64,000 bases of DNA from Candidatus Zixiibacteriota bacterium. GTDB lineage: Bacteria > Zixibacteria > MSB-5A5 > GN15 > FEB-12. The position numbers were made by a program, and so were the translations under genes. Below are positions 34,392-38,765 of this stretch, piece after piece; within the stretch, counting starts at the first letter, position 1, and each line of letters starts with the position of its first letter. The stretch spans positions 1-64,000 of the forward strand of contig JACZXB010000006.1 in assembly GCA_022571845.1 (NCBI GenBank). The letters are read 5' to 3'. The notes beneath the pieces are model-generated. The model did no database searches, was not told where the DNA came from, and saw only the letters and a program-made list of their open reading frames with translations.

Positions 34392-35912
34392 ATGGGATTA
34401 AATCCTGAAGAAGTATCATCGGTAATAAAACAGCAGCTGGAACAGTACGAATCCAAGCTTGAGATGAAATCTGTCGGACGCGTGCTGCAGGTCGGTGACG
34501 GTATCGCCCGTATCTGGGGTCTTGAAGATGTCCAGATGTCCGAACTGATTGAGTTCCCCAACGACGTGGTCGGTATGGTCCTGAACCTTGAGATTGATAA
34601 TGTAGGTGCCGCCATATTTGGCTCCGACATCAAAATTAAAGAAGGTGACACAGTCCGCCGCACAGGTAAAGTGGCCGAAGTTCCCGTTGGTGAGGCCCTC
34701 ATAGGACGAGTGGTCAACCCGGTCGGTCAGCCGCTTGACGGCAAGGGACCGATTGTAACTGACAAAAGACGCATCATTGAGGGAATCGCTCCCGGCGTGG
34801 TACAGCGTCAGCCGGTAAAGGAACCGCTTCAGACCGGACTTAAGGCTATTGATTCGATGATTCCCATCGGACGTGGTCAGCGCGAGCTGGTTATCGGTGA
34901 CAGACAGACCGGCAAAACTGCGCTGGTCATAGATGCTATTATCAATCAGAAAAATACGGATGTTATCTGCATCTATGTTGCTATCGGGCAGAAAGCTTCG
35001 ACAGTTGCACAAGTAGTGGATGTCCTGGAGAAAAACGGCGCTATGGAATACACCATCGTCGTCTGCGCCACTGCCGCCGACCCGGCGCCTCTGCAGTACA
35101 TTGCACCCTACGCCGGCTGCGCCATGGGTGAAGAGTTTATGTACAACGGCAAGCATGTGCTTTGTGTCTACGATGATTTGAGCAAGCAGGCTCAAGCATA
35201 TCGGCAGTTGTCACTTTTACTGCGTCGTCCTCCGGGACGCGAAGCCTATCCCGGTGACATTTTCTACTGCCACTCACGTCTTTTGGAGCGGGCGGCCAAA
35301 CTCTCCGATGATCTCGGCGGCGGCTCTATGACGGCTCTGCCGATAATCGAAACTCAGGCCGGCGACGTATCAGCTTATATTCCAACCAACGTTATTTCTA
35401 TCACTGACGGACAGATATTTTTAGAGGGCGAATTGTTTTTCGCAGGTGTCAGGCCGGCTATCAATGTCGGTATCTCCGTCTCCCGCGTAGGCGGCAACGC
35501 CCAAACGAAAATGATGAAACAGGTGGCCGGCTCTCTCAAGCTTGACCTGGCTCAGTTTAGAGAACTGGAAGCATTCACTCAGTTTGGCTCGGACCTTGAT
35601 GAAGCGACCCAAAAACAGCTCAACCGCGGACAAAGCATGGTAGCGTTATTAAAACAGGGTCAGTACGTCCCTATGAAAGTATCCAGACAGGTTATGATTG
35701 TCTGGGCCGGCACCAAGGGTTATCTGGACGACATTCCCGGCTCGGAAATAGGACGCTTTGAAGAAGAATTTCTGGCTTTCTGCGAAAAAGAATATCCGGA
35801 TATAGAGCATAATTTGAGCAAAGAGATGAAAATTTCTGATGAGATGGAAAAGAAACTGGAAAGCGCCGTAGTGAAATTCAAAAGTCAATTTAAGACAGAA
35901 GAAGACGACTAG
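34392..35912 (+). CDS. atpA: F1Fo ATP synthase subunit alpha
   Basis: 506 residues, usual length. The nucleotide-binding P-loop is [10 protein letters not shown] near residue 170. Typical sequences are [26 protein letters not shown] and [13 protein letters not shown]. It forms the non-catalytic nucleotide sites of F1. The next gene downstream is not atpG but a beta-barrel protein gene 13 nt away. Confidence 0.97.
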
Positions 35913-35925
35913 CGCTTTAAGAAAG

Positions 35926-36540
35926 ATGACAACGAGATATCTAAAACTTATTACGATTGCTGCCTTCCTGCTGGTTAGTTTGTCTTTGGCCGGGCGAGTG
36001 TCAGCGTCAGGCTCTGACGATAAGACAGTCGCTATATACGGCAGCATTGGCCTTAGCGACCCCACCGGCGACCTGGCAGTTGGAGCTGATCTGGGTTTCT
36101 ACGGGCTGACACGCTTAAGTATTGCCATGTCCAATAGAATAGAAGTGACATTTGGAGTTGATTATCATTCTTTCGGCCTTGATGTTCCAGATGACCTTGA
36201 TATCTCACAGAAAAAGGCACTAAGCGGACAAAAATTCACAGCTACATTATTTAACGGCGGTCTGAAAATAAACCCCGGCGAGATTGAGGCCGAGTTGATG
36301 CCGTTTTTAATCGCAGGCGGCGGAATTGCCTTGGTGAACTTTAGCGGTTCCGTAACAGGTTTTTCCTATCCGGGCGGAACAATTAATGCAGACTCTGACA
36401 TCAGGCCATATATGGAATTTGGCGGGGGATTCGAATTTGGACAGATTCAAGCCTGGCTGAAATTTTCAAATGTGTTTCTTCAGGGCTCGGATGCCAGATT
36501 CATTTCTTTTGGAATCGGGGGAAAGCTTTTCTTAATATGA
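35926..36540 (+). CDS. Predicted outer-membrane beta-barrel protein inside the atp operon
   Basis: 204 residues: signal peptide (LKLITIAAFLLVSLSLAGRVSASG), then alternating hydrophobic/polar beta-strands with terminal aromatic residues and many glycines (VAIYGSIGLSDPTGDLAVGADLGFYG, IEVTFGVDYHSFG, FISFGIGGKLFLI). This matches small 8-stranded outer-membrane barrels. It ends in a hydrophobic residue, as barrels do. The role is unknown and it is not an ATP synthase subunit. It sits 13 nt after atpA in the same direction, so it is almost certainly co-transcribed. Confidence 0.75.
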   Translation: MTTRYLKLITIAAFLLVSLSLAGRVSASGSDDKTVAIYGSIGLSDPTGDLAVGADLGFYGLTRLSIAMSNRIEVTFGVDYHSFGLDVPDDLDISQKKALSGQKFTATLFNGGLKINPGEIEAELMPFLIAGGGIALVNFSGSVTGFSYPGGTINADSDIRPYMEFGGGFEFGQIQAWLKFSNVFLQGSDARFISFGIGGKLFLI

Positions 36541-36560
36541 TAGGAGAAGAGCGTAACATA

Positions 36561-36602
36561 GAGCCAAAAATGGCTCAACTGAGTGAACGAACTCAAAGGA
36601 GG
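36561..36602 (+). promoter_or_regulatory. Tandem hairpins and strong Shine-Dalgarno before the second barrel gene
   Basis: Two hairpins in a row: GAGCCA-AAAA-TGGCTC (36561-36576) and TGAGT-gaacga-ACTCA (36580-36595), directly followed by AAGGAGG (36596-36602), 5 nt before the ATG at 36608. This suggests RNA processing or translational control that sets barrel expression apart from that of the ATP synthase subunits. Confidence 0.5.
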
Positions 36603-36607
36603 AACAA

Positions 36608-37153
36608 ATGAGAAAGCTGTTATTGATTTTAACAGTTTTGACACTGGTCCTGGCATCATCGTCATTTGGATTTGATGGTCAGCGCCGAGGATTCGTGTTG
36701 GGTGGAGGCTTAGGCTTTTCACCAGTCGCGAGTTGGGAAGTTAATGGAACCACTCTTGACGAAAGTGGTGCAGGAATTGGGCTAAACCTATTGATAGGTT
36801 ATGCCTGGGATGATCAGAATATGATCGTTTACGAAGGAAATGTAGCCGGCTGGAAATCTGAATTCTTTCTTGATAGACAAGTTTCCCAAGGCTTCTACGG
36901 CGCATCCTGGTATCATTATTTTGGAGAAACAGGTAGATCTGCGTTCACAACTTTGGGAATTGGATATTACGCTTTTGAAGTGGAAGACTTTGATAACAAT
37001 GATCTGGGATTAGGACTTCTCGCAGGCGCAGGATACGAATTTGCCAGACACTGGCAGGCCGGTGCTTACTTTTCCTATGGCAAAACATCAGATCCGGTTT
37101 TTGATTACAATCATTATCATTTTAGTATCCTGGTGGGTGTGGTAGCGTTTTAA
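36608..37153 (+). CDS. Predicted outer-membrane beta-barrel protein, paralogue 1
   Basis: 181 residues with a signal peptide (KLLLILTVLTLVLASSSFG) and a barrel-like body. Conserved pieces shared with the next gene are GFDGxRxGFVLGGG, WYHYFG..GR..FTTLG and GYEFARHWQ.G.Y, and both end in VVAF or MVAF. It is a paralogue of the barrel encoded at 37215. It has the strongest Shine-Dalgarno sequence in the operon. The function is unknown. Its tandem copy and position suggest a duplication inside the operon. Confidence 0.75.
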   Translation: MRKLLLILTVLTLVLASSSFGFDGQRRGFVLGGGLGFSPVASWEVNGTTLDESGAGIGLNLLIGYAWDDQNMIVYEGNVAGWKSEFFLDRQVSQGFYGASWYHYFGETGRSAFTTLGIGYYAFEVEDFDNNDLGLGLLAGAGYEFARHWQAGAYFSYGKTSDPVFDYNHYHFSILVGVVAF

Positions 37154-37214
37154 GTTGGGCGAATGTATGATTACCCAGAGAAAAGAACAGACTGGAAGAG
37201 CAAACTAATTTACT

Positions 37215-37889
37215 ATGGCAACGCTACGAGAAGTAAAAAAAAGAATCAAAACTGTCGTTTCTACCAAGCGCATTACCAGCGCTATGGAAATGTTTTTAAC
37301 TGCACTTGTTGCGTTTTTCCTGTTGGGAGCATCTTCAATCTACGGCTTTGATGGCAATCGCAAGGGCTTCGTTTTGGGCGGGGGTATTGGTTTTGCACCA
37401 ACTTCAGGATGGTCGGGAAATTTAGCTGGTGTGAACACATCGCAGGTCATCGACACTAATGAATATAAAACCGGTGCAGGGTTCAACTTTTTGATAGGTC
37501 ATGGCTGGGATGAAAAGAATTTAATTGTTTTTGAAATAAATATGTCGCGCAGGATTTCAGACTTGTTTGTAATTCGAAATTCGACAGGTCAAATTGAACG
37601 TCAGCCGATCGTTTTGCAGGGATATATTGGAGCCGTTTGGTACCATTACTTCGGTGCACCCGGGCGCACCCTGTTTACAACGTTGGGTTTAGGTCAGTAT
37701 CGTTTTGCTAGAGTTTATTCTTCAGTCTTTCTTCAAAGTGCTGGCACGGGATTAATGATTGGCGGTGGTTACGAATTTGCACGCCATTGGCAGTTTGGCG
37801 GATACTTAAGTACCGGATTTACGACTGAGAAACTTGGATACTGGAATTATACTGATCTCAAGGTATTGGTGAGTATGGTGGCGTTTTAG
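37215..37889 (+). CDS. Beta-barrel protein paralogue 2 fused to the first 26 residues of ATP synthase gamma
   Basis: The open frame of 224 residues starts MATLREVKKRIKTVVSTKRI and continues to ITSAMEM. These 26 residues match the start of AtpG encoded at 37902, with 72 of 78 nucleotides identical by my count. The frame then runs directly into a signal-peptide-like core (FLTALVAFFLLGASSIYG) and a barrel body paralogous to the preceding gene. Either the gamma leader is translated as a long positive n-region, or translation starts at Met24/Met26 (37284 or 37290), which have no clear SD. A tandem duplication from within the barrel signal peptide to codon 26 of atpG would produce exactly this structure. 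Confidence 0.75.
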   Translation: MATLREVKKRIKTVVSTKRITSAMEMFLTALVAFFLLGASSIYGFDGNRKGFVLGGGIGFAPTSGWSGNLAGVNTSQVIDTNEYKTGAGFNFLIGHGWDEKNLIVFEINMSRRISDLFVIRNSTGQIERQPIVLQGYIGAVWYHYFGAPGRTLFTTLGLGQYRFARVYSSVFLQSAGTGLMIGGGYEFARHWQFGGYLSTGFTTEKLGYWNYTDLKVLVSMVAF

Positions 37890-37901
37890 CAAGAGAGAAT
37901 T

Positions 37902-38765
37902 ATGGCAACACTACGCGATGTAAAAAAGAGAATCAAAACTGTCGTTTCTACCAGGCGCATAACCAGCGCTATGGAAATGGTGGCGGCCTCTAAGCTAAGG
38001 CGGGCACAGCAAAAGATAGAACAGACGAGGCCCTATTCTCAAAAGATGGATGAAATGTTACAGCACCTGGCCGCCGGTTCATCAGGCGATATCAGCCATC
38101 CGTATTTTGCGCAAAGAGAACCAAAGAAAAAAACGCTGGTACTGGTTACTTCAGACCGCGGCCTGTGCGGTTCTTTTAACTCAAATGTTATCCGCAGAGC
38201 TGTCAACTGGCTGAGAGAAGAAGGCCTGCCGGAAGTAGAAATTGTAACAGTCGGCAAAAAAGGCAATGACCTCTTAAAAAGCCGACAATGGGAGATAATA
38301 AATAATTATAGTGACTGGGGTGGACAGTTAATTTACGGCAAAGCACGGGACCTGGTAGATTTTTTGACTCAGCGCTTTGTAGCGGGCGAGACTGACTCCA
38401 TTCATTTAATTTATACCCAGTTTATTTCTACTGTAAAATATAAGATTGTGGTGGAGCCATATTTGCCGCTTACCAGACCGAAATCAGGCGAAAAGGCGGG
38501 AATGCGTTCACAATATATTTTTGAGCCGACCCCGGAAAGTATTTATGAATCACTCATGCCCGGTTACGCCTTGACTAAGATGGTCACGGTACTGGTGGAT
38601 TCGTTTGCGGCCGAGCATGGCAGCCGCATGATTGCCATGGGCAATGCTACCAGCAACGCCGGTGAAATGGTTGACGATCTGACGCTTCTTTATAACAAGA
38701 CCCGTCAGGCACAGATTACGAAAGAATTGCTCGAAGTTATTTCGGGTGCGGACGCCTTAAAATGA
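37902..38765 (+). CDS. atpG: F1Fo ATP synthase subunit gamma
   Basis: 287 residues. The N-terminal helix MATLRDVKKRIKTVVSTRRI...AMEMVAASKLRRAQ is complete, the central part shows TSDRGLCGSFNSN, and the C-terminal helix has ERGSRM-like EHGSRMIAMGNATSNAGEM and LLYNKTRQAQITKELLEV. It is the rotating central shaft. It is separated from atpA by about 2 kb of barrel genes, which is unusual. The GAGAG 5 nt upstream serves as ribosome binding site. Confidence 0.95.
   Translation: MATLRDVKKRIKTVVSTRRITSAMEMVAASKLRRAQQKIEQTRPYSQKMDEMLQHLAAGSSGDISHPYFAQREPKKKTLVLVTSDRGLCGSFNSNVIRRAVNWLREEGLPEVEIVTVGKKGNDLLKSRQWEIINNYSDWGGQLIYGKARDLVDFLTQRFVAGETDSIHLIYTQFISTVKYKIVVEPYLPLTRPKSGEKAGMRSQYIFEPTPESIYESLMPGYALTKMVTVLVDSFAAEHGSRMIAMGNATSNAGEMVDDLTLLYNKTRQAQITKELLEVISGADALK

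Follow-up and report, generated by a model that had tools for sequence, protein, structure and literature searches.

The window, i.e., the whole 64,000-nt stretch of DNA analysed, belongs to a metagenome-derived genome of the Zixibacteria and carries three outer-membrane protein (OMP) genes between atpA and atpG, the third of which (37215-37889) begins with a copy of the 5' end of atpG. The interval is made up as follows.

34392..35912, + strand: atpA (506 aa), upstream border of the array, with homologues 5' of atpG across the phylum
35926..36540, + strand: OMP gene 1, with an ordinary signal peptide; orthologues in L024, L031, L016/L033 and L035
about 36541..36607 (to 36612 as a block), + strand: slot-1 5' UTR, a constant block that has a strong Shine-Dalgarno (SD) sequence, AAGGAGGAACAAATGA (SD energy -10.0)
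36608..37153, + strand: barrel gene 1, 181 aa, a paralogue of barrel 2 without the leader (PF13505, E=2.5e-7)
37154..37214, + strand: spacer between barrel gene 1 and the leader; about 46 nt (37154-37200) absent from G001b, a closely related strain, then GCAAACTAATTTACT, which is similar to other leader spacers
37215..37292, + strand: leader, by sequence comparison copied from atpG codons 1-26; supplies the start codon and a predicted 25-aa n-region, charge +5
37293..37346, + strand: putative hydrophobic core of the signal peptide with its cleavage region, FLTALVAFFLLGASSIYG, placed from hydrophobicity alone
37347..37889, + strand: mature barrel 2, eight predicted strands (AlphaFold model, pLDDT 86.9; Foldseek matches Ail, OmpX, NspA)
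37404..37913, no strand: tract near-identical to congener G002 within diverged surroundings (2/510 differences), read as a recent inter-lineage exchange
37902..38765, + strand: atpG, encoding the gamma subunit, from which the leader derives (PF00231, E=6.8e-98)
37902..37940, + strand: atpG codons 1-13, with excess divergence in the genus (10-13%; other genera 0-8%), interpreted as the result of conversion by leader copies

The leader and the barrel behind it

The repeat that contains the leader (D2; 37214-37292 against 37901-37979) is 79 nt long with 92% identity. A first-pass annotation of the window had noted that the first 26 codons of the barrel gene match those of atpG, and a recount returned the same 72 of 78 nt, with four synonymous and two nonsynonymous changes (E6D and K18R). 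Taken alone, the leader is found by PF00231 at E=6e-4, its residues 3-26 aligning with profile positions 1-24 of 285, i.e., a small part of the gamma domain and not its full length. A chance match is excluded, as further assembled loci of the genus also have the leader block on several barrels, again in frame and placed at the start codon. Profile and structure model agree with the annotation that the frame runs from the leader into a signal-peptide-like core and then into a barrel paralogous to the gene at 36608, and the claim that the two barrel bodies are far more diverged than the leader also holds (56% nucleotide identity with saturated synonymous sites, compared to 92% for the leader).

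By profile and fold the bodies of the leader genes belong to the PorT/OmpX-type small barrels (PF13568, PF13505), from which they differ in having the start and n-region taken from atpG. Window barrel 2 scores 17.2 bits against PF13568 (E=0.0057), under the Pfam cut-off of 27; barrel 1 is above its profile cut-off (31.5 vs 28.7 bits) and two other leader barrels are far above theirs. The AlphaFold model of the leader with barrel 2, built from 19 aligned homologues, predicts a long helix (residues 4-44) followed by an eight-stranded barrel at a mean pLDDT of 86.9, and Ail, OmpX and NspA are among the best Foldseek fold matches, as for an eight-stranded barrel with an N-terminal signal. A homologous barrel match in G009 (L006 1501-2130) contains an in-frame TAA and is possibly a pseudogene, or may have its start further in. 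The Rfam search at the locus returned no known RNA element.

Leader copies in the genus and beyond it

Comparison of the atpA-atpG region among related genomes, as the annotation had proposed, revealed atpG-derived leader chimeras in the congeners. The genus comprises four genomes, all data are metagenome assemblies, and G001 contains two strains (G001a and G001b). OMP gene 1 was found in every genome of the genus. The shared leader MATLREVKKRI[K/R]TVVS is present in three congeners, in one of them as two strain variants, and is attached to barrels of several kinds between atpA and atpG: G002 has three consecutive leader barrel genes (MATLREVKKRI(R/K)TVVS) 5' of atpG, in G001 the leader is carried by a PorT-type barrel in both strain variants, and in G003 it is borne by a relative of barrel 1. 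Apart from atpG itself this amounts to seven leader copies in the genus (window 37215; L035 2836, 3575 and 4221; L031; L024; L033). The junction lies directly past codon 16 or 17 in G001, G002 and G003 and past codon 26 in the window. Outside the atpA-atpG array no leader copies were found in G000 and G002.

Two alternative accounts of this pattern come into question. First, the use of metagenome assemblies and the two strains within G001 invite the suspicion of an assembly or binning artefact. The annotation had named an artefact of this kind, with only one atpG 5' end, as grounds for refuting its reading, but chimeras were assembled several times independently, among others on a 544-kb contig of G002, on a 179-kb contig of G000 and in the single-contig 3.6-Mb genome of G050, and an artefact is hardly conceivable. 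Second, a mobile element could recognise and restore the atpG 5' end, in the manner known for certain integrative elements at the ends of genes. The inserted genes are indeed bordered by direct copies of the atpG 5' end, and the 3' end of a PorT-type gene followed by spacer and leader continues as atpG in L031 and as another barrel in L035, i.e., an unfilled and a filled site. However, no integrase or transposase was found among the neighbouring genes scanned (a subset of the ORFs), the inserts are single genes and the junctions vary between codon 16, 17 and 26; site-specific integration is very unlikely.

In a survey of 133 genomes of the phylum no leader copies were found beyond the window genus and G050, duplicate atpG contigs aside; additional matches in G016 and G098 proved on inspection to be second starts of atpG and not chimeras. 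In G050, which belongs to another genus, a barrel gene of 244 codons is present twice, with MPTLREVKKRIRT.. or MITLREVKKRIRT.. at its start and the junction at codon 26. The closer leader copy agrees with the G050 atpG at 70/78 nt and with the window leader at 57/78 nt, and since it is closer to its own atpG it is read as an independent origin. G050 also has two separate atpG loci (L074, L075). In L075 a 36-nt piece of the atpA 3' end occurs twice (791-826 and 1563-1598, 81%), the repeat lying between two OMP genes, which mirrors the atpG 5' duplication. Small OMP genes with ordinary signal peptides lie in the atpA-atpG gap in several genera of the window family, f1 (L040, L042, L047-L049, L052, L083-L085, L094, L106, L116, L117 and others), and in no examined genome outside f1. 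As such barrels occur in a number of f1 genera, the resident barrels of the interval probably predate the chimeras, judging from their distribution.

The annotation had explained all junctions by one tandem duplication extending from inside the barrel signal peptide to codon 26 of atpG. Part of this stands. In G001b the spacer between barrel 1 and the leader, TTTTAACAAAATAGTACTATGG, resembles the spacer between barrel 2 and atpG, TTTTAGCAAGAGAGAATTATGG, and this likeness together with the 36-nt atpA repeat of G050 fits tandem duplications that end in neighbouring genes, so that a tandem-duplication step may well be how the chimeras originated. The spacer similarity and the paralogy of the neighbouring barrels would also fit one old duplication in the window lineage, followed by slow drift of a leader that has no role or is held by conversion from atpG, a plausible donor. 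A single duplication is nevertheless insufficient, because the leader sits on unrelated barrels, junctions fall at codon 16/17 besides 26, the barrel-2 body appears recently exchanged and the leader pool apparently converts atpG. As a full explanation it is ruled out by the congeners and G050 together, the latter with its separate origin, and a leader without a role is further at odds with leader-private variants that are still mostly silent and with the lack of another usable start in most carriers (see below). This alternative is largely refuted by the congeners already and we consider it improbable.

Probable translation start and predicted signal peptide

If translated, the annotation argued, the leader would put the N-terminal helix of gamma ahead of a signal peptide. 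The leader is very probably translated in this position, providing start and n-region and with them the true N-terminus of the protein, as most carriers are without another good start. In the chimeras an uncharged core follows directly after the leader, and in the PorT-type and 208-aa chimeras the core even takes in the TVVS of atpG. The predicted n-region charge, which is supplied by the leader, ranges from +3 to +7 across the carriers. Internal ATG, GTG or TTG starts in the leader genes give no positive charge or a partial core, the exception being ATG13 in G003 (+1, weak). In the window gene Met24 and Met26 are possible starts, but the charge of the n-region would then be zero; as a general account, initiation at Met26 only fails on the PorT-type leader genes, in which no internal start retains the full core.

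Selection, conversion by atpG and retention in register had been offered as reasons why the leader is kept, and there is evidence for the first two. Variants private to the leaders, i.e., seen in leaders but absent from all three copies of atpG in the genus, number nine synonymous to four nonsynonymous, three of the four being in G003 alone. A 3:1 ratio of nonsynonymous to synonymous changes is expected without constraint and the binomial probability of the observed counts is 1e-3, the variants not being fully independent events. Conservation of the leader could also partly stem from conversion by unsampled atpG alleles.

Leader starts have a weak Shine-Dalgarno sequence and are A-rich and mostly of low structure, compared to an SD energy of -10 in slot 1, and their SD strength is not below that of many other window genes (median -2.5). 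It is conceivable that the leader is kept as a portable translation leader for the initiation of SD-poor genes, its peptide being irrelevant to export, and the strong SD of the leaderless slot-1 genes would agree with this. On the other hand, the leader-private changes are under constraint at the protein level and the only n-region charges come from the leader, which makes a role confined to initiation rather unlikely. More probably the leader serves as start context and n-region at once.

Exchange, probable conversion and comparison with known systems

Between the window and G002 only 2 of 510 nt differ at 37404-37913, compared to 63/691 (9%) in the later part of atpG (p=2e-13, with tract bounds set after inspection). 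The corresponding dS is 0.05 for the barrel-2 body and 0.37-0.44 for atpG and atpA (atpA 0.44). On this divergence the barrel-2 body is recently exchanged with another species. The tract begins in the early barrel-coding region, just 3' of a signal peptide and leader that are wholly different, and ends within the first codons of atpG. In atpG codons 5-13 the two genomes differ at 5/27 sites, followed by low divergence to about codon 57. Within the genus codons 1-13 of atpG diverge by 10-13% in three pairwise comparisons, although they are usually the least diverged part of the gene (0-8%) in the family's other genera; the pooled Fisher test gives p=0.009 for pairs that are not independent. Of the five patch sites, the first three have in the G002 atpG the same bases as in two leaders of G002. 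This agreement and the excess divergence suggest that leader copies act as conversion donors for the beginning of atpG. G001a and G001b differ at 8/48 positions in the leader and at none of the following 55 nt, a run at a contig end that equals a common assembler k-mer length and shows adjacency, not the extent of identity. A shared 5' block lies at the inferred recombination breakpoints, in the few genomes available. A constant 5' block (..TCAAAGGAGGAACAAATGA) occurs in slot 1 as well, at window 36541-36612, L035 2127-2200 and L031, in three congeners and each time ahead of a different OMP gene (n=3), and is read as a possible second anchor for barrel swapping.

Repeated tandem duplication probably made the chimeras, with the leader exapted as start and n-region and later serving as a shared block for cassette exchange. 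The starting state would have been a small array of outer-membrane barrel genes between atpA and atpG. Duplications running from within a barrel signal peptide into the start of atpG would have fused atpG codons 1-16 to 1-26 to the hydrophobic core of a barrel. The copied piece would then have provided a start codon in a weak-SD, A-rich and mostly weakly structured context, together with nearly all positive charge of an n-region that directs export. A block of 48-78 nt common to several genes and atpG would in turn allow homologous recombination, presumably of the RecA type, in or near it, by which barrel bodies could be gained, lost and swapped between strains, possibly under selection for barrel diversity, and the first codons of atpG converted. 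More tentatively, the atpG 5' end may be a dual-use module, at once a portable front of start and export signal and a site of barrel exchange without a recombinase, for which the essential gene pays by repeated conversion of its N-terminus and which arose at least twice. One may speculate that surface barrels under such exchange have a role toward phages or neighbours.

No published atpG-derived leader was found in the literature searched, in which few subscription journals were covered. The nearest functional analogue found is the upstream homology sequence (UHS) of the Borrelia hermsii vmp genes, a stretch of 61-62 bp shared by the 5' ends of surface-protein genes that reaches into the coding region, is required for expression and is the proposed crossover site for body swapping, in a system with a single expression site and some 60 silent copies (PMC6011951). 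Both blocks straddle the gene start and are tied to expression and exchange. In contrast to the vmp genes, however, the atpG-leader copies are all in an operon and their block has been taken from atpG, a housekeeping gene that is essential; a silent leader-bearing archive was not found when leader copies were sought in G000 and G002. The extended signal peptide region (ESPR) of autotransporters is likewise a long charged N-terminal extension before an ordinary Sec core (PMC2805444), and the leader genes share with it the positive charge, the Sec signal core and the outer-membrane destination. The leader is however gamma sequence with an origin of its own, it has one n-region and one core instead of the N1-H1-N2-H2 order, and the carriers are small eight-stranded barrels, not type V secretion proteins, so that it is not an ESPR on a type V protein.

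The beginning of a housekeeping coding sequence has here repeatedly been put to use as the start and the signal-peptide front of proteins at the cell surface, with duplication, junction variants, inter-species exchange and apparent donor-gene conversion documented as steps. This provides a natural system in which to test signal peptide evolution from a cytosolic helix and surface gene shuffling without a dedicated recombinase. Tandem duplication is known to create chimeric genes in which one gene's 5' end continues in frame into the body of the adjacent gene while both parents are kept. The atpG leader differs from these in having been joined to several neighbouring genes, in two genera, with subsequent exchange and apparent conversion of the parent gene.
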